From positions 1 to 35,677 of the forward strand of contig CAMNSB010000007.1 of the NCBI GenBank assembly GCA_946554325.1: a stretch of 35,677 bases of DNA, written 5' to 3'. The notes under the pieces were generated by a model. The model was not told where the DNA came from. It did not search any database and was given only the letters and a program-made list of their open reading frames with translations. Each line of letters starts with the position of its first letter. Within the stretch, counting starts at the first letter, position 1. The stretch is from an uncultured Mycoplasmatota bacterium (GTDB lineage Bacteria; Bacillota_I; Bacilli_A; RF39; UBA660). The position numbers were made by a program, and so were the translations under genes. This document shows, piece by piece, positions 1,642 to 31,355 of the stretch.

Positions 1642-1715
1642 GGGTCTATAGCCAAGTGGTAAGGCGTGGGACTGCAACTCCCTGATCGTTGGTTCAAATC
1701 CGACTAGGCCCTCCA
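1642..1715 (+). tRNA. tRNA-Cys (anticodon GCA)
   Basis: The acceptor strands GGGTCTA (1642-1648) and TAGGCCC (1705-1711) pair over seven positions with one G-T wobble. They are followed by T as discriminator base and an encoded CCA (1713-1715); U73 is a cysteine identity element. The anticodon loop CTGCAAC carries GCA, and the T arm contains GGTTCAAATCC. One T-T mismatch is seen at the end of the anticodon stem. The gene is complete, so the neighbouring element has not disrupted it. Confidence 0.95.
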
Positions 1716-1725
1716 TTTGAAAACA

Positions 1726-1765
1726 ACTTACGAACCTTTATGGTATCGTGAGTTTTTATTTTATA
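1726..1765 (+). terminator. Rho-independent terminator of tRNA-Cys
   Basis: ACTTACGA (1726-1733) pairs with TCGTGAGT (1746-1753) with one wobble. An inner ACC/GGT helix caps a TTTAT loop, and the stem is followed by a T-rich tract. Confidence 0.8.
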
Positions 1766-1807
1766 TAAAACTTAAAGTTCTCTTTCTAGAAAGGAGGGCC
1801 TTTTTTG

Positions 1808-2092
1808 ATGTTGAAATTTAAAATTATGGAAACGCTAAAGCCAAATAGTGAAATTTTGGAAATTATTAAAGACTACACCTACAAAGTTAAAAAAGGAACA
1901 GTTAAACACTTATTACATACTAATTTACAAGTTATAGAGCCAACTACATATTTAATTACATATCCTACTACTCTTACAATACTAGAGTATAAAATTAACG
2001 AAATATCTAACAAACCATTTTTTATTAAAGAGCATAATCAAAAATATTCATTATCAGAACTTATCCAAATTTTAAAGAAATTGAAAATTTAG
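1808..2092 (+). CDS. Hypothetical protein, 94 residues
   Basis: I do not recognise this small Lys/Ile/Thr-rich protein, which has no membrane segment. AAGGAGG at 1791-1797 lies 10 nt before the ATG at 1808, so that start is preferred to the TTG one codon earlier. The gene is co-directional with the serine recombinase that starts 115 bp further on and has similar AT-rich codon use, so it may be the first gene of the mobile element. Its ribosome site GGAGGGCC is an exact complement of the tRNA-Cys 3' end; see findings. Confidence 0.6.
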   Translation: MLKFKIMETLKPNSEILEIIKDYTYKVKKGTVKHLLHTNLQVIEPTTYLITYPTTLTILEYKINEISNKPFFIKEHNQKYSLSELIQILKKLKI

Positions 2093-2112
2093 ACTTAACT
2101 TTTTGGATTTTT

Positions 2113-2198
2113 GTGAGGAAACATATGAGAGGACATTTTTACAAATTCTTAAGTTTATTGTTTGCTATTTTGTCTTTCAGTGAGGAAACAAGTGAGGA
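2113..2198 (+). repeat. Direct repeats upstream of the recombinase
   Basis: GTGAGGAAACA occurs at 2113-2123 and 2180-2190, and a partial copy GTGAGGA follows at 2192-2198. The repeats fill the 115-bp gap before the recombinase and the last copy runs into its ribosome site. They could be recombinase binding sites of an attachment region or an operator. Confidence 0.5.
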
Positions 2199-2207
2199 GA
2201 TTATTTT

Positions 2208-3998
2208 ATGAGATGTGCAGTATATGTAAGAGTTAGTACAGACGACCAAAGAGATAATGGTTATTCTATTGATTCACAACTTCGTATGATTAAAGAATAT
2301 TGTGAGAAAAACGATTATAGTATTGTTGATGTTTATAATGACGCAGGTCATTCTGGAAAAGATTTAATGCGACCAGAAATGCAAAGATTACTTGCTGATA
2401 TTAAATCTAAAAAGATTGATAAGTTAATTGCTATTAAGGTAGATAGACTTACAAGAAGTAACTATGATGGCTTTTGGTTACTTAATTATTGTGAAGAACA
2501 CGATGTTAAAATTGAGTTAATACTCGAGCCTTATGATGTATCTACTGCTAATGGAGAAATGATATTCGGTATGAATTTAGTATTTGGTCAAAGAGAAAGA
2601 AAAGAAATTGGAGCAAGAACAAAAAGAGCAATGGAAGAAATGGCACTAGAGCATATTCAACCTAGTAAAGCACCTTATGGCTATGTAAGAAATAAAGATA
2701 CAGGTCATTTAGAAATAGACCCTATTGAAGCCCAAGTTGTTAAAGAAATATTTAAACTTTGCCAAGAAGGACAATCTACTAGAGGCATTGCTACTATTAT
2801 GGATGATAATAATGCTTATTTAAAAAATGGTAAGTGGAGAGCCGATAGAGTTTATAAAATACTTACTAATTCTATTTATATAGGTATATTTGAATATGGA
2901 AAATATAAAAGAAAACAACAAGATATTTTAAGAGTAAAAGATTATTGTGAGCCAATTATTGATGAAATTACTTGGAATGCTACTAGAAATGTATTGGTGA
3001 AAAATAAGCATTCAAACTATGGCGAGTTTATTCATTTATTTTCAGGATTAGTAAAATGTCCGATATGTGGCGAGATTATGGCTTCATCAGAATCTTTTAA
3101 ATATCCAAATGGAAAACAAAAAGTTTATTATCATTTAAGATGTAAAAATCATAATTGTAGTGGCTATGGACTTCATTATAATACCGAGAAAATAGAAGTT
3201 AAATTAAGGCGTGTTTTAGAAGAATTAACTATCTTTATGATGGGAACAAATAATGAGATTATTACTTGTAATTCTACAAAAAGTAATGATGTAAAAGAAA
3301 TAGAAAAAGCCATTGAAAAATTAAAATTACAGGAAAAAAGATTAGTGGATTTGTATTTAAGTTCTACCCTAGATGTTGAGGCAATTAATCATAAAAATGA
3401 TGTTATCAAAAAGGAAATTGAGAAACTAAATAAAAAGAAAATAACTCTTGATCCAGATAATGAATCAAAAGAATATACAACAGAACTATTAAAAAAATTA
3501 GATTGTAAAAAGGAAGATGACAAATTGATATTTAAAAATGTTAAGATGTTTGACTTTACCTTTTTCTATAATTTACTATCAAGAGAAGCCAAACGAGATA
3601 TGATTCATAGACTAATATCACAAATAGAAATCACAAGAGATAATAACTACAATATTGACATTAAATATATAAAATTCACTGATGAATTTATCTCAAAAAG
3701 TAGCAATGAGTTTATCAAATACTTATATATTGTTCTAAAAAATGATACTATTGGTATTAAATATCTAAATGGAATTACTGAGAAAGAATTAGAAATCAAG
3801 AAAAAAGATTATGATGTTTTATCCATTCTAAAAATGACAAGTAATAAATATTCGAGTGAATTTGTTGATGATTTTTTTGCTAAAGCTCATAGTCATTTCT
3901 ATGTAGATGGTATAATTGACAGTCCTTATTTTGAGGGAAATGTCTCTAAAGATTTTCTATTATTAGTGCCTAAAAATGAAATTGCTAAAGCAAATTAA
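2208..3998 (+). CDS. Large serine recombinase (integrase of a mobile element)
   Basis: This is a large serine recombinase of 596 residues, expected to catalyse site-specific integration and excision through a phosphoserine link. The resolvase domain (about 1-150) has the catalytic Ser10 in YVRVSTDDQ and the conserved arginines of KVDRLTR (80 and 83). The recombinase domain follows (about 155-260), then a zinc ribbon with cysteine pairs at 284/287 and 312/317, and a Lys/Glu-rich coiled coil near 365-415. The length is in the range for TndX/TnpX-like transposases of integrative elements. AGGAG lies 8 nt before the ATG. It appears intact although its neighbours are decayed, so the element may still be excisable. 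The attachment sites could not be fixed. Confidence 0.93.
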   Translation: MRCAVYVRVSTDDQRDNGYSIDSQLRMIKEYCEKNDYSIVDVYNDAGHSGKDLMRPEMQRLLADIKSKKIDKLIAIKVDRLTRSNYDGFWLLNYCEEHDVKIELILEPYDVSTANGEMIFGMNLVFGQRERKEIGARTKRAMEEMALEHIQPSKAPYGYVRNKDTGHLEIDPIEAQVVKEIFKLCQEGQSTRGIATIMDDNNAYLKNGKWRADRVYKILTNSIYIGIFEYGKYKRKQQDILRVKDYCEPIIDEITWNATRNVLVKNKHSNYGEFIHLFSGLVKCPICGEIMASSESFKYPNGKQKVYYHLRCKNHNCSGYGLHYNTEKIEVKLRRVLEELTIFMMGTNNEIITCNSTKSNDVKEIEKAIEKLKLQEKRLVDLYLSSTLDVEAINHKNDVIKKEIEKLNKKKITLDPDNESKEYTTELLKKLDCKKEDDKLIFKNVKMFDFTFFYNLLSREAKRDMIHRLISQIEITRDNNYNIDIKYIKFTDEFISKSSNEFIKYLYIVLKNDTIGIKYLNGITEKELEIKKKDYDVLSILKMTSNKYSSEFVDDFFAKAHSHFYVDGIIDSPYFEGNVSKDFLLLVPKNEIAKAN

Positions 3999-10355: not shown

Positions 10356-12320
10356 TTATCTTTTAATTAAAATATTTTGAATCATCTCAACAGTCTTTTC
10401 TACCCCTAAGCTATCTACATTAATAGCCAAATCATAATGTGAAAAATCAGTCCATTTTTGATTAGTATAATATTCATAATGTTTTGCTCGTTCCCTATTT
10501 ACTCTTCGTATCGTTTTTAATGCGTCCTTTTTATCTAAATGATAATACTGAACGGCCCTATTTACTTTATCTCTTTCACTACTATATAAGAAAATTTTAG
10601 TGACATTTTTCTTATCTTTTAAAATATAGTCTGCACAACGACCTACAATCACACAAGATTCAGTCGCTAAACTCTCAATTACTTTGGACTCCGCTATAAA
10701 TATCTCATCATCACTATTATATTCTGGAGAATAACTTTTCTTTTTCTGTTCATTTTTTTGAATATAACCTTCTGTAAAACCAGACTCCTTTGCAGTTAAA
10801 GATATAATTTCTTTATCATAAAATGGAATATTTAAACCCTCTGCAAGTAAATGCCCAACATATCTTCCACCAGATGCATATTCCCGATTGATAGTAACAA
10901 TTTGCTTGATTTTTAATACTTCTTTATTTAATTTCAACCTTATCTCTTTCTCTTTTTCTACTGTATTACTATTTCCAATCTTCTTATATTCTGACATAAA
11001 GATATAAATAACAGCAAAAAAGCATAAAATATCAGCAATTGGTCCTGCATATAAGGCACCATAAATTCCCATAAAATGAGATAATAGTAAAGCAATAGGA
11101 ATAAATAAAATAATTTGACGAATAAAAGTAACAAGAGTTGCTTTCTTTACATTTCCAAGAGATTGAATCATAATACTACTACTCATCTCAAATGCATTTA
11201 AAAAAGATACCATCAAAAAAATTCTACAAGAGTCTATTGCAAATTTTAAATAAAGTTCATTATCTTTACTACCAAAAAGCATAATTAATTGTCTTGGAAA
11301 AATTAAGAAACATAAATTAAAGAAAACGCCAATCACTAAATTTACTATAATGACTTTACGAAGTGTCTCTTGTACCCTTTTGGTCTTCCCAGCACCATAG
11401 TTAAACCCAACAATTGGCTGTGCTCCAATCGCAATTCCAAGAACAGAGGAAACATATAAGTTATTCAGCTTAGAAATAACACCATAAACAGAAAGTGGAA
11501 TATCACTCCCAAATTCAGATAATGCTCCATAATGAGTCATCATATTATTCATAAAAACAAATAATACTAATATAATCATTTGTGTAATAAAGGAAGATAG
11601 ACCATAGCCCAACACTTTACGTAGCGATTTATTGAGATGATAGTCTTCTCTTTTCAAAGGAATACTTTTAAATTTTTTAAGATAAAAAAGAGCAATTACA
11701 CAAGAAACGCCTTGTCCAATAATAGTAGCAAGAGCTCCTCCTTCTACACCCATATGAAACTTTAATATGAAAATAGCATCTAAAATAATATTAATAATTG
11801 CTCCTATAACTAATAAAATCATAGAGTATTTAGGAGATCCATCTGCACGTATTAATGAAGAAAGTGATGTATAAGTAATCATGAATGGGGCTCCCATTAA
11901 AATAATTCGCCCATATTTTAAAGCATAAGGATAAACATTTTCTGTACATCCAAAAAGAGGAAGGAAAACAGGTAATAAAAAATAGCACAGAATACTAAAA
12001 ATAATAGAAAACAGAATCGTAAATACAACTGTCCCACCTACTGATTTAGCCGCTTCCTCTCCCTTCCCTTCTCCAAGACGCAAACTAAGATTCGCAGCAC
12101 ATCCATTCCCAATTAGTCCAGCAAATGCATTACAGATAATAACAAGGGGAAAGATGACATTCGTAGCAGCATTTCCTAAATATCCGACTCCCTGTCCAAT
12201 GAAAATTTGATCAACGATATTGTAAATAGAGTTTACAATCATACTAATAATACAAGGAATAGAAAAAGCAAATAATAATTTAGATATCTTCTCTTCCCCC
12301 AAATTGAATGTTTTATTCAT
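10356..12320 (-). CDS. MATE efflux transporter fused to a cytidylate-kinase-like domain
   Basis: The protein has 654 residues when started at the ATG at 12320, which has AAAGGAG upstream. Residues 1 to about 445 form a MATE-family cation/drug antiporter with twelve hydrophobic segments and the family start GEEKISKLLFAFSIP. From about 470 to the end lies a cytidylate-kinase-like domain: INREYASGGRYVGHLLAEGL, then FYDKEII, VIVGRCADYIL and an RRVNRERAKHYEYYT lid-like region. MATE proteins are normally about 450 residues, so the kinase-like part is a true C-terminal extension facing the cytoplasm. The glycine motif SGGRYVG is a variant P-loop, so catalysis is uncertain. Confidence 0.9.
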   Translation of the reverse strand: MNKTFNLGEEKISKLLFAFSIPCIISMIVNSIYNIVDQIFIGQGVGYLGNAATNVIFPLVIICNAFAGLIGNGCAANLSLRLGEGKGEEAAKSVGGTVVFTILFSIIFSILCYFLLPVFLPLFGCTENVYPYALKYGRIILMGAPFMITYTSLSSLIRADGSPKYSMILLVIGAIINIILDAIFILKFHMGVEGGALATIIGQGVSCVIALFYLKKFKSIPLKREDYHLNKSLRKVLGYGLSSFITQMIILVLFVFMNNMMTHYGALSEFGSDIPLSVYGVISKLNNLYVSSVLGIAIGAQPIVGFNYGAGKTKRVQETLRKVIIVNLVIGVFFNLCFLIFPRQLIMLFGSKDNELYLKFAIDSCRIFLMVSFLNAFEMSSSIMIQSLGNVKKATLVTFIRQIILFIPIALLLSHFMGIYGALYAGPIADILCFFAVIYIFMSEYKKIGNSNTVEKEKEIRLKLNKEVLKIKQIVTINREYASGGRYVGHLLAEGLNIPFYDKEIISLTAKESGFTEGYIQKNEQKKKSYSPEYNSDDEIFIAESKVIESLATESCVIVGRCADYILKDKKNVTKIFLYSSERDKVNRAVQYYHLDKKDALKTIRRVNRERAKHYEYYTNQKWTDFSHYDLAINVDSLGVEKTVEMIQNILIKR

Positions 12321-12349
12321 AAACTTACTCCTTTCTAAAAACACATAAA

Positions 12350-12384
12350 AATTGCGCAACCCATCTGACTAGATTTACGCAATT
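12350..12384 (-). promoter_or_regulatory. Attenuator-like hairpin in the MATE leader
   Basis: AATTGCG and CGCAATT form a perfect 7-bp stem around an inner ATCT/AGAT hairpin. On the transcribed strand it is followed by TTT, so it resembles a weak terminator or a leader hairpin. A TTGACA is present upstream (12393-12398), but no good -10 lies at the right distance. Confidence 0.4.
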
Positions 12385-12974: not shown

Positions 12975-13868
12975 TTATATTTTTTCTAATATACCACTTT
13001 CTAAATCTTCAATTGTATATAAATGTTCAATTTCATCATAAGCATCTTCTAAATTATCTCTAGATGGCAACCAACCTTTTCCATCAGTTATAAAAACAAA
13101 TTTCACATTCTCTATTCCTTTTATTTTATTATTTAATTCAATATAACTTTTTGCTGTTTCGTTTGGTTTCGAACCTTGCTTTGCATAATAATTAACCTCC
13201 ATAACAATTATTTTGTTATCATTTTTACTTTTATAAACAAAATCAAATTTTTTAGTCGCTTTACCTATAGAACACAAATTAGTTCCATACTCTTTATCTA
13301 TATCAGAATTCTTCATTTGACAATGATATGGCACATCCAAAAGTTTAATGTATTCTTCTACAATAGCTTCCATTATTTGACCAGATCTAGATTTTCTAGC
13401 ATTAGTATCCATACCAACTTCTATTCCAATTGCATAATCAACCAAGTTTTTTATCTTCTTATCTCGTAATAATCCCAACAAGCCACTCTTTCTTAAAAAC
13501 TCTGCATAATCTTCAATAGGATGATTTAATTGTATAAAATCATAGCATATATATTGTTCATCAATGATATTAAAATTTCTGTTTTTTATATTATCAAGCA
13601 TTATCATTGCCGGAACATTTATAATATTAAATTTTGTCTCATGTGTTGCCAAAAGAATAGGAATTGATTTCATGATTTCTGGATATTCTGATATTAAATC
13701 AATAAATTCTTCCTCAATATTTTCTTTACCAATTAAACTATTTAATAAATTCAAATGTCTTTCATAATCCTTTATATTCAAATAAACTTTAGGATAATCT
13801 ACAAAGAAATCGGTTGGAGTAATACTATTCTTTAAACCTTTTATTATATCACTAAACTCTCGCTTCAT
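12975..13868 (-). CDS. dpnB: DpnII-family type II restriction endonuclease (GATC)
   Basis: The 297-residue protein matches DpnII/MboI-like endonucleases in length (DpnII has 288) and in the segments ARKSRSGQIMEAIVEEY and KFDFVYKSKNDNKIIVMEVNYY. The Asp-Phe-Asp and Glu-Val-Asn part has the shape of a PD-(D/E)xK active site. It should cut unmethylated GATC. Its ATG overlaps the stop of the second methylase by four bases (ATGA). It is last in the operon, so the methylases are made first. Confidence 0.92.
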   Translation of the reverse strand: MKREFSDIIKGLKNSITPTDFFVDYPKVYLNIKDYERHLNLLNSLIGKENIEEEFIDLISEYPEIMKSIPILLATHETKFNIINVPAMIMLDNIKNRNFNIIDEQYICYDFIQLNHPIEDYAEFLRKSGLLGLLRDKKIKNLVDYAIGIEVGMDTNARKSRSGQIMEAIVEEYIKLLDVPYHCQMKNSDIDKEYGTNLCSIGKATKKFDFVYKSKNDNKIIVMEVNYYAKQGSKPNETAKSYIELNNKIKGIENVKFVFITDGKGWLPSRDNLEDAYDEIEHLYTIEDLESGILEKI

Positions 13869-14632
13869 CTTCTATCACTTTCCCTTCTTCTTATAGTTAA
13901 ATCTAAAAAATCTTTTTCTTTTTCAATACCAATATATTTTCTATTTAATCTACTGGCAACGATTCCAGTTGTTCCACTACCATTAAACGGATCTAGTATT
14001 AAGTCCCCCTCATCAGTAGATGCAAGTACTATTTTCTCTAATATTTCTATTGGTTTTTGAGTTGGATGTTTACCACATTTTTTCTCACTAGGTTTTGTAA
14101 GTGATGACTCCCAAACATCTTTCATTTGTTTTCCACCATTTAATTCTCTCATCAAAGAATAATTAAATTTATGTCTTGTTTTTTTAATATCTTTTTTTGC
14201 CCAAAGAATCGTTTCAGTAGAATGAACAAAAAATCTACAACTAATATTAGGGGGAGGATTTAACTTCTTCCAAGTAATATTATTGATTATCTTAAATCCT
14301 TCTTGTTCCAATGCCATACCTATTGAATAAATATTATGCATCGTTCCACTAATCCAAATAGTACCATCATCTTTTAATACCTGATAACATAGTTGAATCC
14401 ATTTTCTATTAAACTTATGTTTTTCTGAAATACTAATTGATTTATCCCAATCACCTTTATTTACTGATACCATTTTTCCACCACTACAAGATATCCCATC
14501 ACTAGACAAAAAATAAGGAGGATCTGCAAATATCATATCAATACTTTTAGGTTCTATACTTCTAAGTATTTTCAATGAATCACCTTGTATAAGTTTAAAA
14601 TTTTTCTCTTCATAATAATATTTATTACCCAT
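13865..14632 (-). CDS. dpnA: DpnA-type DNA adenine methyltransferase (second methylase)
   Basis: This 255-residue N6-adenine methyltransferase has the catalytic DPPY at 37-40 near the N-terminus and the AdoMet-binding DPFNGSGTTG near 217. That motif order is typical of the DpnA group, which methylates GATC and, in pneumococcus, also single-stranded DNA during transformation. GAGGAGG precedes the ATG. It stands between the Dam-like methylase and the endonuclease, as in the dpnM-dpnA-dpnB operon. Confidence 0.93.
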   Translation of the reverse strand: MGNKYYYEEKNFKLIQGDSLKILRSIEPKSIDMIFADPPYFLSSDGISCSGGKMVSVNKGDWDKSISISEKHKFNRKWIQLCYQVLKDDGTIWISGTMHNIYSIGMALEQEGFKIINNITWKKLNPPPNISCRFFVHSTETILWAKKDIKKTRHKFNYSLMRELNGGKQMKDVWESSLTKPSEKKCGKHPTQKPIEILEKIVLASTDEGDLILDPFNGSGTTGIVASRLNRKYIGIEKEKDFLDLTIRRRESDRR

Positions 14633-14671
14633 ATAAACTACCTCCTCATTTATATTGTACGAGAAAATTAC

Positions 14672-15520
14672 TTAAATTCCTTTTTTATTTTCAAAATTGG
14701 TAACAATAACTTCTTCTACTTTACCCCTCTTTGATCCATTAGAATTAATATTTCTCTTCGCTTCAATTACATGAATAGAAAAATCTTTATACAATTCATG
14801 AATTAAAGTAGTATTATGATTAGATAGCATAACATAACAACCTTTATCAGATAATTCCTTAAATACCTTAGCAAGCCTTCTTTGTTCATCTTTTCCAAAG
14901 CCATCTTCAGTATAACTATTAAATGTAGAAGTATCAGAGTCATATGGTGGATCAAAATAAATAAAATCGCCCTTTTTCGCATCTTGAACTGCCTCTTCAA
15001 AATCTACTGAGAGTAATTGAATATCATTATAATTTAAGTAGCCACATATAATTCCTAGATTTTGTCCCTCATAAGTATTTACCTTATTTTTTTTACCAAA
15101 TGGCACATTAAACTCATTCTTACTATTAACTCTATATAACCCATTAAAACATGCCTTATTTAGATAGATAGTACGAGCTGCTCTTTTATAATCTGCTAAT
15201 CGATTAAATTTCTTTTTATCCCTATCAATATTTCTAATTGTATAATAGTATTCTTCAGAATGTTCAGCCTCATGATGATTTAATTCTCTGCACATTAAAT
15301 CAAATTTTTTTTCATCTTTAATACACTCATATACATTAATAAGTTCCTGATTAAAATCATTAATAACGGCAACTTTAGGAGAAAGTTCAAATAACAACGC
15401 TCCACCCCCAACAAACGGTTCATAATAAGTATTAAATTCATCAGGAACATATTTTTTTAACTGTTCGATTATTTGTCTTTTCCCACCAGCCCATTTTACA
15501 AATGGTTTTCCTTTAATCAT
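14672..15520 (-). CDS. dpnM: DpnM-type Dam DNA adenine methyltransferase (GATC)
   Basis: This Dam-family methylase has 282 residues. The AdoMet-binding motif PFVKWAGGKRQ lies at 6-16, YYEPFVGGGALLFEL follows, and the catalytic FDPPYDSDT lies near 180. It protects GATC sites of the host from the endonuclease in the same operon. An unknown gene ends 17 bp upstream of its start and is probably co-transcribed. The ribosome site AAAAGG is a little far from the ATG, so expression may depend on coupling with the upstream gene. Confidence 0.94.
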   Translation of the reverse strand: MIKGKPFVKWAGGKRQIIEQLKKYVPDEFNTYYEPFVGGGALLFELSPKVAVINDFNQELINVYECIKDEKKFDLMCRELNHHEAEHSEEYYYTIRNIDRDKKKFNRLADYKRAARTIYLNKACFNGLYRVNSKNEFNVPFGKKNKVNTYEGQNLGIICGYLNYNDIQLLSVDFEEAVQDAKKGDFIYFDPPYDSDTSTFNSYTEDGFGKDEQRRLAKVFKELSDKGCYVMLSNHNTTLIHELYKDFSIHVIEAKRNINSNGSKRGKVEEVIVTNFENKKGI

Positions 15521-22702: not shown

Positions 22703-22809
22703 ATACATCACCCTATATTTCATTATAATGATTTTGTCATAAATTGACTATAAGTAACAGGAAAACTCGACACTAGTTTGACATAGTATTTAGAGAAAGG
22801 ATGTTGGCA

Positions 22810-23739
22810 ATGATAAGAAAAACAGTTGGAATTCCAAGAGCACTACTTTTTTATTACTATAAGGATTTATGGGAAGCATTTTTTGAAAAATTAGATGTAA
22901 GTGTTGTCTACAGTGAAGAGACGAATAAAGAAATAATAGAAAAAGGAGAACAGTTAAGCATCGATGAAGCATGTCTTGCCTTAAAAATTTATCTAGGACA
23001 TATTGATAATTTAAAAGGACGATGTGACTACGTTTTAGTGCCCCGAATGTACTGTGTAAAAAAGTGCGAACAGGTCTGCACAAATTTTAATGCTTTATTT
23101 GATATTGTTCATACTCTCTATCCTGATATCAGTATTTTAAATTACAACGTTGACCTAGAAAGACGAAAAAAAGAGTCCAAAGCTTTTATCCATATGGGAG
23201 AAGAGTTAGGTTTTTCCTACATTGAAAGCTACAATGCTTATCTTTGTGCAAAAGAAATAGAAAGAAAAAGAAAAGAAGAAAGAATAAAAGAACAAGAAAA
23301 AAAGTTCTCATCAAATAAATTAAAGGTGTTAGTAGCATCCCACCCATATAACTTATATGACTCCTATATTAGTGGTGAGGTAATCACTCATCTAAAAAAG
23401 GAGAATATAGAAATTATCTATTCTGATATTATCCAAAGAGAACTAATAGATAGAGAATGCAAAAATATATCAACAGATATTCACTGGACTCATAGTAAAG
23501 AAGTAATGGCAAGTATCAGTCGCTATCAAAAGAAAGTAGATGGAATGATTTTAATTTCCTCTTTTCCTTGCGGACCAGACTCTCTTGCTATTGAGATGAT
23601 TAAAAGAAAAGTAGATATTCCCACTTTGTATCTCGTCTTTGAAAACGAAAATAGTACTGCTGGTATTACGACTCGACTTGAGAGTTTCTTTGATATTTTG
23701 AGGTCAAAAAAGGAGGTGCTATATGAAAGAGGTCATTAG
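22810..23739 (+). CDS. 2-hydroxyacyl-CoA dehydratase-related subunit (DUF2229-like)
   Basis: The 309-residue protein begins IRKTVGIPRALLFYYY, the typical start of the DUF2229 part of giant CoA-dehydratase activases. Conserved cysteines occur in YCVKKCEQVC and SSFPCGPDS, candidates for an iron-sulfur cluster. The ATG at 22810 is preferred because AGAAAGG stands 9 nt upstream; the ATG at 22801 would overlap it. The gene overlaps the next by 17 bp. In many Clostridia this module is fused with the next two, while here it is separate. The physiological substrate is unknown. Confidence 0.8.
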   Translation: MIRKTVGIPRALLFYYYKDLWEAFFEKLDVSVVYSEETNKEIIEKGEQLSIDEACLALKIYLGHIDNLKGRCDYVLVPRMYCVKKCEQVCTNFNALFDIVHTLYPDISILNYNVDLERRKKESKAFIHMGEELGFSYIESYNAYLCAKEIERKRKEERIKEQEKKFSSNKLKVLVASHPYNLYDSYISGEVITHLKKENIEIIYSDIIQRELIDRECKNISTDIHWTHSKEVMASISRYQKKVDGMILISSFPCGPDSLAIEMIKRKVDIPTLYLVFENENSTAGITTRLESFFDILRSKKEVLYERGH

Positions 23740-24790
23740 TTTTCCCCATCTTGGAGACTACTATATTCCTATTCGTAAACTACTTCGCAATTTAACGAAA
23801 ATGGAAGTTATCCCCGCTCCTCCTATTACAAAAAAAACTATTGAACTTGGAAGCAAATATGCACCAGATACTGTCTGTGTTCCATTTAAATATAACTTAG
23901 GAAACTTTATTGAAACACTAGATGAGGGGGCTACCATTTTATTTCAAGCAGGTGGTGGATGTCGGTATCGCTATTATGCAGAAGTACAAGAAAAAATTTT
24001 AAAAGATTTAGGATACAAGTTTCACTTTTTCAAACTAGTAAGTCATGACCGCGTTCGAGTACTAGAAACTTTTCGTCTCTTTAAACAATTAAACCCACAT
24101 CTTAAATTTAGAACTTTTATAAAAGAAGCACTCCATGCTCTATGTTTCATTTATTATATGGATAAAATTGATGAAGTAATTAGAAAAAATATTGGCTTTG
24201 AAAAAGAAAAAAATAGCTTTAAGAATTTAAAAAAAGAAATGTTAAATGAAATGGATAAAACACATTCTACTTTTGCACTTTGGCGTATGTATAAAAAATA
24301 TAAGAAAAAATTCCGTAAATTAAAAGTAGAAAAGCCAAAAAACACGTTAAAAATTGCTGTCATTGGAGAACTATACACTGCAATGGAACCGTTTTCTACT
24401 TACTTTTTAGAAGAGGCTTTAGCGAGTATGAACATTGAGATTAAAAGGTTTACTAACGTCAGTTATCTTTTATGGCAAAAAGCGCTTGTGACAAAATGGT
24501 TATTATTTAAAAGTCGTAAGTATTGTAAATATACACTGGGAGCGGATGGTCTCGATAATGTTTATCGGGTGCTCTATGCAAAACGTCATCATTTCGATGG
24601 TGTAATTCATACAAAACCTTTTGGATGCACTCCAGAAATTGGGGCAATCCCTATTATTCAAAAGGCAGCACAAGATGCATCTCTTCCCATACTTTTCTTC
24701 TCTTTTGATAGTCAAACATCGGAAGAAGGAATAAAAACTAGACTAGAAGCATTCTATGACTTAATTAAAATACGAAAGGAGAAACAATGA
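23723..24790 (+). CDS. 2-hydroxyacyl-CoA dehydratase-like subunit
   Basis: The 355-residue protein begins KEVISFPHLGDYYIPIRKLL and contains APDTVCVPFKYNLGNF, FQAGGGCRYRYYAEVQ and HTKPFGCTPEIGA, each with a conserved cysteine for an iron-sulfur site. These match the dehydratase part of large activases. AGGAGG precedes the start inside the upstream gene. It overlaps the activase gene by four bases (ATGA), so translation is coupled. Confidence 0.82.
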   Translation: MKEVISFPHLGDYYIPIRKLLRNLTKMEVIPAPPITKKTIELGSKYAPDTVCVPFKYNLGNFIETLDEGATILFQAGGGCRYRYYAEVQEKILKDLGYKFHFFKLVSHDRVRVLETFRLFKQLNPHLKFRTFIKEALHALCFIYYMDKIDEVIRKNIGFEKEKNSFKNLKKEMLNEMDKTHSTFALWRMYKKYKKKFRKLKVEKPKNTLKIAVIGELYTAMEPFSTYFLEEALASMNIEIKRFTNVSYLLWQKALVTKWLLFKSRKYCKYTLGADGLDNVYRVLYAKRHHFDGVIHTKPFGCTPEIGAIPIIQKAAQDASLPILFFSFDSQTSEEGIKTRLEAFYDLIKIRKEKQ

Positions 24791-25731
24791 AAAAAGGATA
24801 TTTAGGAGTAGATATTGGTTCGATTTCCACAAAAGGCGTTGTAATCGATGAAGAAAATAATGTTCTTGCTAGTTGTTATTTAATGACGCAAGGAAATCCA
24901 ATTGACGCTGTAAAAAGGCTTTTGAGGGAACTAGAAAAGCAAAGCGATAATATAAAAATTGTGGGAGTTGGGACCACTGGTTCTGCTAGAAAATTAATTG
25001 GTACAATGCTAAATGCCTCTATTGTTAAAAATGAAATTACAGCACATGCGATTGGCACTTTGTCACGTTATCCAGATATTAGAACGATTCTAGAGATTGG
25101 TGGACAGGACTCTAAAATTATTCTAATAGATGATGGAATTGTAGTGGACTATGCAATGAATACTCTTTGTGCTGCTGGGACTGGTTCTTTTTTATCCAGT
25201 CAAGCAAAACGTCTTGATATTCCAGTAGAAGAATTTGGTCCACTCGCTCTAACAAGCAATAATCCTACTCCTATTGCTGCACGTTGTACCGTCTTTGCAG
25301 AAAGTGACCTTGTTCATAAAGCACAGATGGGTCATACCAAAAAAGATATTGTAGCAGGACTTTGTCGGAGTGTTGCACTCAATTATTTAAATAATGTTGG
25401 TAAAGGAAAAAGAATAGTAGAACCGATTATTTTTCAAGGTGGCGTTTCCAAAAATGTAGGAGTAATAAAGGCTTTTGAAGATATTTTAGGATGTTCCATC
25501 AAAACAGATGAAAATGGTCATTTAATGGGAGCAATCGGGGTTGCTATCCTTTCAAAAAAAGAAAAAGAGATAGAATTCAACTTTGAGGTAAGTGAACACG
25601 AATTCACAACAGTTGGAACAAATTGTGGAAAGTGTCCTAATCACTGTGAAATTGTAGTTATCAAAAAGGATAAGAAATTAATTGATGCTTGGGGAAATCG
25701 TTGTGAAAAGGGACAAGTGAAAATTTCTTGA
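24787..25731 (+). CDS. Acyl-CoA dehydratase activase (BcrAD/BadFG, HgdC-like ATPase)
   Basis: This 314-residue ASKHA-fold ATPase has the phosphate loops GVDIGSISTKGVVID (7-21) and LEIGGQDSK (102-110). Cys128 in NTLCAAGTGS and Cys167 in AARCTVFAES are the expected ligands of the [4Fe-4S] cluster shared by the dimer. It should pass electrons to the dehydratase subunits with ATP hydrolysis, in strict anaerobes. An unusual tail carries a second cysteine group (280, 283, 287 and 306), perhaps another metal site. The stop TGA overlaps the -35 of the downstream RNA promoter. Confidence 0.92.
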   Translation: MKKGYLGVDIGSISTKGVVIDEENNVLASCYLMTQGNPIDAVKRLLRELEKQSDNIKIVGVGTTGSARKLIGTMLNASIVKNEITAHAIGTLSRYPDIRTILEIGGQDSKIILIDDGIVVDYAMNTLCAAGTGSFLSSQAKRLDIPVEEFGPLALTSNNPTPIAARCTVFAESDLVHKAQMGHTKKDIVAGLCRSVALNYLNNVGKGKRIVEPIIFQGGVSKNVGVIKAFEDILGCSIKTDENGHLMGAIGVAILSKKEKEIEFNFEVSEHEFTTVGTNCGKCPNHCEIVVIKKDKKLIDAWGNRCEKGQVKIS

Positions 25732-29422: not shown

Positions 29423-30031
29423 CTATTTACAAGGATAGAAATAAGAAATTACTTTTGCAAACTGATAGAGAATGATATTACTCTTATTAACAGCAAAGCT
29501 TTTGCCAATTGCTTTTCCACCAATCGTAAGTGCAGAAATAACACCAGTTACAGCAAGTGTCGTAAGGAGTAAATCCCAATGAAACTTGGAAACTAAAAGA
29601 GAGGTAATCGTAATACCAGAAGCACCAGAAATAACTCCACAAATATCTCCCACTACATCGCAACAAAAACTAGAAACTTTTTCGGCATTTTTATGAAACT
29701 TAACAGCAACTTTAGCACCACGCACTTTTCTAGCACTCATCGAATGAAATATTTTGTCATCACTAGAGGTAACAGCAACACCAATAATATCAAACAAAAT
29801 ACCTAAAAAGATAAAAATAAATGTAATCAAAATACTAACTGGTAATGTAGATTGTTTAATCGTCACTTCTGATAAAAAAGAAAGTCCGAACGATAAGAAG
29901 AAGGAAATAGTAAAAATGGTTATAATCCATCGCCAATTAACAAGTTCTTTCTTCTTTTTTTCACGTCTCCTAGTCTGTACTTCTAAGCTACGCAGTTCTC
30001 CTTTTATTTTACTTTTCTCTGCTCGATTCAT
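29423..30031 (-). CDS. Integral membrane protein, CNNM/CorB-like region
   Basis: The 202-residue protein has a basic N-terminus and about four hydrophobic segments. The central part, ILFDIIGVAVTSSDDKIFHS followed by ARKVRGAKVA, resembles the DUF21 (CNNM) membrane domain of CorB/CorC proteins, which takes part in magnesium or cobalt transport. The usual CBS pair is missing. AGGTGG precedes the ATG. TATAAT with TTGCTT 17 nt upstream lies inside the end of the large RNA gene. The family assignment is tentative. Confidence 0.6.
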   Translation of the reverse strand: MNRAEKSKIKGELRSLEVQTRRREKKKKELVNWRWIITIFTISFFLSFGLSFLSEVTIKQSTLPVSILITFIFIFLGILFDIIGVAVTSSDDKIFHSMSARKVRGAKVAVKFHKNAEKVSSFCCDVVGDICGVISGASGITITSLLVSKFHWDLLLTTLAVTGVISALTIGGKAIGKSFAVNKSNIILYQFAKVISYFYPCK

Positions 30032-30067: not shown

Positions 30068-30092
30068 AAAAAAAGCAAAATTTCTTTTGCTT
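30068..30092 (-). terminator. Terminator of the large RNA
   Basis: On the minus strand AAGCAAAA-GAAA-TTTTGCTT is a perfect 8-bp stem with a GNRA-type loop, followed by TTTTT. Confidence 0.85.
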
Positions 30093-30701
30093 ATTTCAAA
30101 TAAAAATAAATGGCTATCAACTTGGTAAACTTTGAGCCTTAGGTCAAGCAGGATTTCCCTAACTTCTACACAGTCGTTACCAACTGTGCGGTTCCCCATT
30201 TCTAGAAGTTAATACCCAAAGGTATGGCTTGATCACCACTTAGTGCCCACTGCAATCCCAACTGACATCACTCTAGGAGATTTCCTCACCAGACTTTATT
30301 ATTAATTCTTTTTTGCAAAAATGATTTCAAATTGCAACTTTAAGGACTTCGGCCAAAGACCCTAAAGCCGTTCAATTATCCCAAGCATCTTCACTCAAGA
30401 CAAGCTACACTACACATAGCTTTCGCCACATAGTAGGTTTAATCCTAAATCGTAATAAGTCCGTCAGCCTAAAATGAATTTTTGGTTGGCGTATAGGCTT
30501 ACCACAAAGATAGGTCTCCACAGATACTGGGTCGTTTATCGTATGCCATTACGGACGCCCAATACCCTAACCCTCCAGCATCCACCCCAAACTGGGCGTA
30601 AGAAGCAAACACCAAAGGTTTCACAGATGTGCTCTTTAACGGTGGTTTATTCCCGTCTTCATAATAAAGTAACTGACTAGAATAGTGTGCCATCAATTAC
30701 G
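30068..30701 (-). ncRNA. Large structured non-coding RNA, about 630 nt
   Basis: This stretch has no credible gene, is visibly richer in G and C than its surroundings, and has a consensus promoter at one end and a strong terminator at the other. Many nested helices can be drawn on the minus strand: AACTTCTA/TAGAAGTT enclosing CACAGT/ACTGTG; TCAAGC/GCTTGA closing a junction with the hairpin ATACC/GGTAT; AGCCTA/TAGGCT; CGCCCA/TGGGCG; TTGCAA/TTGCAA. ATGGC near the 5' end can pair with GCCAT near the 3' end. Size and style recall the ROOL, GOLLD and OLE ornate RNAs; ROOL is closest in length, but I cannot confirm a class. It is not tmRNA, RNase P RNA or a group II intron by their hallmark motifs. 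Confidence 0.75.
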
Positions 30702-30707
30702 TACTAA

Positions 30708-30736
30708 ATTATACCAAAAATATAAAATTTTGTCAA
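30708..30736 (-). promoter_or_regulatory. Consensus promoter of the large RNA
   Basis: On the minus strand TTGACA (30731-30736) and TATAAT (30708-30713) are both perfect, with exactly 17 nt between them. Predicted start about 30701. Such a promoter implies abundant transcription. Confidence 0.9.
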
Positions 30737-30818: not shown

Positions 30819-30847
30819 TTGACACTTTTAAATTTACAATTTATAAT
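30819..30847 (+). promoter_or_regulatory. Consensus promoter of the gene at 30870
   Basis: TTGACA (30819-30824) and TATAAT (30842-30847) are perfect with a 17-nt spacer. It is divergent from the large-RNA promoter, about 85 bp away. Confidence 0.85.
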
Positions 30848-30869: not shown

Positions 30870-31355
30870 ATGTATTCTTATAAACAACAATCTTTTATAA
30901 TCAACGAAAATAAAGAACTACTACTAGAACAATCATTAGAAAATAGTATTGAAGAAATAGAAAAAAAGGTTCCGATAATCTATGAACAATGCTATCTCGA
31001 ATTAAGGCAAAAGAAAAATCTACACCCTATAAAATTATCCATTCTACAAAATAGTATACCTATCATCTTTAATAAAAATCACGACTTTTTCGAAATAAAA
31101 AGTTGTAGTAGAACAGCCCAAATACAAGCATTTAATCTATTGAATGAATATATCTATTATCAAATACAAAATAAAATGGTAGAAGACGAAACATTTTATG
31201 ATATAACCAAAATAATAGAGATAGAAGAAACAACATTAAAAGATATAGAAAAAGAAGATGATCCACAAATGGATTTTGGAAGAAAAGGTCTTGTAAAAAG
31301 TGAATTATATAAACATCATAATTATAAAATGACCAAACAAAATAAAAAGAGCTAA
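30870..31355 (+). CDS. Hypothetical protein, 161 residues
   Basis: I do not recognise it. The ATG at 30870 is chosen because GAGGTG lies just upstream and the promoter at 30819-30847 would exclude the longer frame starting at 30777. The protein is soluble and highly charged, with a long helical part (ENSIEEIEKKVPIIYEQCY) and a basic Lys-rich end. The strong promoter suggests good expression. Confidence 0.7.
   Translation: MYSYKQQSFIINENKELLLEQSLENSIEEIEKKVPIIYEQCYLELRQKKNLHPIKLSILQNSIPIIFNKNHDFFEIKSCSRTAQIQAFNLLNEYIYYQIQNKMVEDETFYDITKIIEIEETTLKDIEKEDDPQMDFGRKGLVKSELYKHHNYKMTKQNKKS

Follow-up and report, generated by a model that had tools for sequence, protein, structure and literature searches.

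In this work we describe a full-length OLE RNA gene and its partner gene oapA in a Bacilli lineage with reduced genomes, and we consider it very probable that the pair encodes an RNA dimer held by OapA. The gene lies on the minus strand of the window (the whole stretch of DNA analysed, 35,677 nucleotides), where a first-pass annotation had proposed, naming no strand, a large, ornate, non-coding structured RNA of the ROOL class or of a new class. The class assignment itself is ordinary, the RNA being a well-preserved representative of the already known OLE class. The present analysis establishes the OLE identity, the conservation of the fold, the identity and linkage of OapA, and the co-occurrence of the two genes. 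The features of the locus, in the order of transcription, are as follows.

30708..30736, minus strand: OLE promoter, TTGACA-17-TATAAT plus a TG extension (12/12 consensus; family loci)
30094..30709, minus strand: OLE RNA (RF01071), full length (375.6 bits, model 1-616 of 616; covariation)
30638..30657, minus strand: P4 hairpin with A-rich loop, RNA 53-72 (transferred structure, covariation, loops)
30572..30618, minus strand: P5/P5.1 arm with conserved GCCCA loop, RNA 92-138 (transferred structure, covariation, loops)
30522..30567, minus strand: P6/P6.1 arm with conserved GGCA loop, RNA 143-188 (transferred structure, covariation, loops)
30410..30514, minus strand: P7 and P8 region, RNA 196-300, largely missing from short family variants (transferred structure)
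30307..30400, minus strand: P9 arm with self-complementary GGCC loop, RNA 310-403 (transferred structure, covariation, loops)
30289..30302, minus strand: 3' strand of P3/P3.1, RNA 408-420, with partner RNA 35-49 at 30661-30675 (duplex prediction, pair counts)
30115..30267, minus strand: stems of domain 2, among them the P13 hairpin (loop GGUAAC), RNA 443-595 (transferred structure, covariation)
30068..30092, minus strand: intrinsic terminator with a GAAA-capped stem and a T run (seen in the sequence itself)
29423..30031, minus strand: oapA, a 202-aa CNNM-like membrane protein with DxxxD (motif, weak profile, predicted fold, OLE co-occurrence)

Identity and transcription of the OLE gene

An Infernal search against all 4227 Rfam families returned a sole match at the locus (30709..30094, minus strand), to OLE (RF01071), with a score far above the cutoff (375.6 bits against 50; E = 4.7e-107) and spanning the entire model; with permissive filters and E values up to 1, no other Rfam family matched there. 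OLE was among the models that the first-pass annotation had listed for such a search, together with ROOL and GOLLD, neither of which matched. Its reading as an ornate structured RNA is upheld by this match, the fold and the covariation, whereas the ROOL guess and the new-class option give way to a known class. The 616-nt match and the lack of any reading frame conserved among relatives agree with the size (~600 nt) and non-coding character of OLE. A coding function was rejected, since the 65-aa sense and 68-aa antisense open reading frames are broken by stop codons in nearly all relatives; one relative (G311) has the sense frame open, without a start codon. The sequence of the locus also folds better than its shuffles (z = -2.85; 0/20 shuffles), and its own genome (1.40 Mb in 92 contigs; assembly 94.6% complete) carries exactly one OLE copy.

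The perfect promoter reported earlier is real (TTGACA-17-TATAAT with an extended -10 element, 30736..30708, minus strand), and the window contains two promoters that match all 12 consensus bases, where shuffles would give 0.07 by chance. The first ~8 bases of the RF01071 match overlap the -10 box, and because the match begins at 30709, within that box, the 5' end of the transcript probably lies near 30702. A TTGACA-16/17-TG-TATAAT pattern recurs across 24 family loci, about half of which retain all 12 bases, and this dedicated, near-consensus promoter conserved in the family is a modest addition to what is known of OLE. At the other end, the GNRA-capped terminator described earlier was likewise located (30092..30068, minus strand), reading by eye as AAGCAAAA-GAAA-TTTTGCTT followed by a T run; a pattern scanner missed it because the stem has just two G-C pairs. 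A strong sigma-A promoter of its own would drive OLE, and its own terminator would end the transcript.

The second perfect promoter (30819-30847, plus strand) points away from OLE and precedes a 161-aa orphan gene (30870-31355). No relative of this divergent protein was found in 40 related genomes, phages, Pfam, NCBIfam or PHROGs, and a functional link between it and OLE was rejected on that ground. Elsewhere the window holds a tRNA-Cys followed on the same strand by a large serine recombinase gene (1642-3998, plus strand), which may mark the border of an integrated element; a single 667-aa frame in which MATE transporter and cytidylate-kinase-like domains are joined (10356-12359, minus strand); a DpnII-type restriction endonuclease with a D12 adenine methyltransferase, likely a restriction-modification system (12975-15520, minus strand); and three neighbouring genes with DUF2229, HGD-D and BadF/BcrA ATPase domains that resemble a split CoA-dehydratase activase (22801-25731, plus strand).

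Conserved fold and predicted dimer contacts

Transfer of the Rfam consensus structure to the window sequence gave 138 standard pairs, which were counted across 14 family sequences aligned with MAFFT (65-83% identity to the OLE sequence of the window); as the structure was taken from Rfam, it was not fitted to the sequences tested. Pairing was found in 88.4% of cells, and both sides had changed in 78 of the 138 pairs among the 14 relatives. The covariation score of 0.396 compares with 0.179 on shuffling (0/500 as high) and at most 0.135 with the partner slid; the Rfam helices covary among these relatives well above either control. Support is weaker for the outer stem (RNA 443-452/585-595, ~53% paired) and the distal P9 arm (65-76% paired). 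Two helices that had been picked out from the sequence are Rfam helices: the 8-bp AACTTCTA/TAGAAGTT corresponds to RNA 499-506/543-550, with both-side changes in seven of its eight pairs, and TCAAGC/GCTTGA to RNA 478-483/561-566, with five invariant pairs and one that covaries. OLE would fold into a domain 1 running from P3 to P9 and a domain 2 from P10 onwards.

The long-range helix P3/P3.1 is not part of the Rfam OLE model. In 14/14 sequences, the 5' end was predicted to form a duplex with approximately nt 408 to 447, and the helices RNA 35-37 plus 40-49/408-420 and RNA 26-33/434-441 covary or stay paired beyond both controls, in a count that includes one misaligned column pair scored as mostly unpaired. 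We assign the names P3/P3.1 by position and length: the window helix has 13 bp with a 2-nt bulge, compared with the 12 bp that P3/P3.1 typically total according to Lyon and Breaker (2025), who propose the helix to be membrane-spanning (PMC12265935). An outer P3 extension (RNA 18-22/443-447) is poorly supported, with pairing of 56% and 50%, and is not claimed.

Cryo-EM has placed the contacts of the OLE dimer at L4, at L5/L6/L7 and at an L9.3 kissing loop, and the P4 hairpin with its A-rich loop is a dimer contact in other OLE RNAs (PMC12286853). Every one of 26 aligned family sequences has the P5.1 loop GCCCA and the P6.1 loop GGCA, and the A-rich P4 loop is present with variation. The P9 loop reads GGCC in most members, UAGCUA in four (G020, G234, G091 and G204, the last read by eye from the sequence, its predicted fold being different), UGUACA in G009 and GUCGAC in G280, such that self-complementarity is kept while the sequence changes. 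A 6-nt palindrome is expected by chance in 8-15% of such loops, so no single P9 case is decisive; taken together, the three different palindromes are suggestive. A switch of the P9 loop from GGCC to GAUC or AGCU has been published previously, to which the GUAC and UCGA palindromes seen in these sequences add. The most likely reading is that this OLE RNA dimerises via its A-rich P4 loop, its P5.1 and P6.1 loops and its self-complementary P9 loop.

OapA and its association with OLE

The oapA gene lies directly downstream of OLE, as is usual for OLE genes. Its product shares with the MpfA / CorB / CNNM Mg2+ transporters a weak CNNM profile match and its nearest solved fold, and its hydrophobic segments fit a protein that crosses the membrane several times. 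The profile score of 22.2 bits is under the Pfam cutoff of 28.4, and a sequence search against the PDB gave no match. An AlphaFold2 model (helical, pLDDT 85) had CNNM/CorB/CorC structures as its top four matches in a PDB fold search, with modest E values (best 3.5e-3). Unlike those transporters the 202-aa protein is too short for CBS or CorC domains, and it carries a FC[CN]DV[VI]GD-type motif in which both DxxxD aspartates are invariant across 23 sequences; DxxxD is the feature that sets OapA apart from CNNM domains (PMC11332333).

Across 25 family genomes, OLE and OapA were both found in 13, neither in 10, and one without the other in two (Fisher p = 3.5e-5). Each of these two lies at a contig end: in G001 a 141-base piece of OLE (94% identity) abuts the end of the contig, and the contig of G019 stops 117 nt beyond the downstream end of OLE. 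When 295 genomes drawn evenly from the phylum were searched with stricter filters, under which weak matches are lost, OLE turned up in the family of the window only. Full-length CNNM (MpfA-like) proteins occur in 0/15 OLE carriers versus 13/25 non-carriers, which is in line with a published anticorrelation and is confounded by phylogeny. Genomes of the lineage measure 0.8-1.7 Mb. Within the family, OLE varies in length from ~495 to 619 nt, with sequence lost from the P7/P8 region, from the distal P9 arm or from both (at loci including L014, L015, L016, L047, L051 and L053). Most of nt 185-275 is missing only in G013, G019, G022 and G204, most members keeping P7/P8, and the distal P9 arm is lost in a few members (G311, G290, G013 and G022).

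This arrangement bears on whether the RNA might instead be a long cis-acting leader controlling oapA rather than an independent particle RNA, an alternative that we regard as improbable. In most family genomes OLE does immediately precede oapA, with both genes on one strand, and while a terminator separates the two in the window and a number of relatives, in others oapA begins soon after OLE with no terminator evident (both read by eye). However, the two genes are located on different contigs in G004, the conserved dimer loops are unexpected of a leader, and work on H. halodurans shows OLE bound to OapA in a membrane RNP, where disrupting OLE produces phenotypes of its own (PMC12265935).

A candidate particle and its relation to known systems

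Drawing on work in H. halodurans and Clostridium for dimerisation, membrane anchoring and a role in stress or Mg2+, the best reading of this locus is that OapA would anchor an OLE homodimer as part of a particle for stress or Mg2+ homeostasis. OapA, as a CNNM-like membrane protein, would hold the RNA at the membrane, and the particle would probably take over part of the job of the Mg2+ exporter MpfA, together with a wider stress adaptation.

The further proteins of the particle were sought and appear to be missing. The OapC (L7Ae/YbxF) domain PF01248 was found in 0/25 family genomes (94.6% completeness for the assembly of the window) versus 14/15 genomes from other families, and ribosomal S12 (rpsL), sought as a synteny anchor for OapC, is not in the assembly. 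OapB was sought by its KOW domain, not by OapB sequence, and the matches in the own genome were ribosomal L24 and NusG only; in its adk-map-infA region, map and infA stand 4 bp apart with no OapB gene between them, the slot that in Bacillus holds the OapB gene (ybzG). The class also includes genomes that read TGA inside the L24 frame, in the manner of Mollicutes, which together with the genome sizes of 0.8-1.7 Mb would suggest an RF39-type lineage. OapB and OapC are essential in H. halodurans, so that the particle may work differently here.

The RNA nevertheless keeps conserved sequence at the OapC k-turn site (strand 1 UGUGAA, J6/7 GGAGA) and in the P13 loop near the OapB site. We had entertained an erosion of the k-turn, since its pairing with J5/6 looked degraded; the cryo-EM structure pairs it with J6/7 (PMC12286853), which is invariant in the 14-sequence alignment, and the idea was dropped. 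The apparent retention of these site sequences where both partners appear to be missing is a modest addition. It is possible, though we put it at somewhat less than an even chance, that a minimal OLE particle in this family consists of full-length OLE RNA and OapA alone. If so, the k-turn and P13 motifs would serve the RNA's own architecture, OapB and OapC would be later additions or lost helpers, and the family would offer the simplest system for studying what OLE and OapA do.

The locus could alternatively be read as a decaying relic that survives by chance in a shrinking genome and has no function: the genome is reduced (1.4 Mb), OapB and OapC were not detected, and the P7/P8 region or the distal P9 arm is gone from some relatives. 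We give this very little credence, as present selection is indicated by the perfect promoter, by stems that are intact and show compensatory changes, by loops that do not vary, and by an intact OapA that strictly co-occurs with OLE. Last, and with hardly any weight, a ROOL-class or new ornate RNA would account for the length, promoter, terminator and complex helices, which suit any large ornate RNA, but not for a sole Rfam match to OLE over its entire model or for the adjoining oapA. ROOL and GOLLD belong to the same size class of large ornate RNAs as OLE and form homo-oligomers (PMC12286853).

An OLE homodimer with OapA remains our preferred reading, and the locus is moderately useful as a comparative system. 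The lineage offers what appears to be an RNA-plus-OapA version with single-gene transcription in a small genome, and natural variants with and without P7/P8 in one family make a good comparative set for the essential parts. With the OLE RNAs of H. halodurans and Clostridium, the window RNA shares the full-length model, P3 to P9, the domain 2 stems, the dimer loops and a downstream oapA; it differs from both in that a small hairpin of the model (positions 424-435) is missing from nearly the entire family. Unlike the H. halodurans gene, which is part of a polycistronic cluster (PMC12265935), it has a near-consensus promoter of its own, and neither the OapB nor the OapC of the H. halodurans-type RNP was detected with it. 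Closer to hand, Fernando and Breaker (2024) reported that RF39 OLE RNAs are commonly of variant 2, without P7/P8, OapB and OapC (PMC11332333). Our locus probably belongs to the same lineage of reduced gut-type genomes and likewise appears to lack OapB and OapC; unlike variant 2, its P7 and P8 (RNA 196-300) are present and paired.
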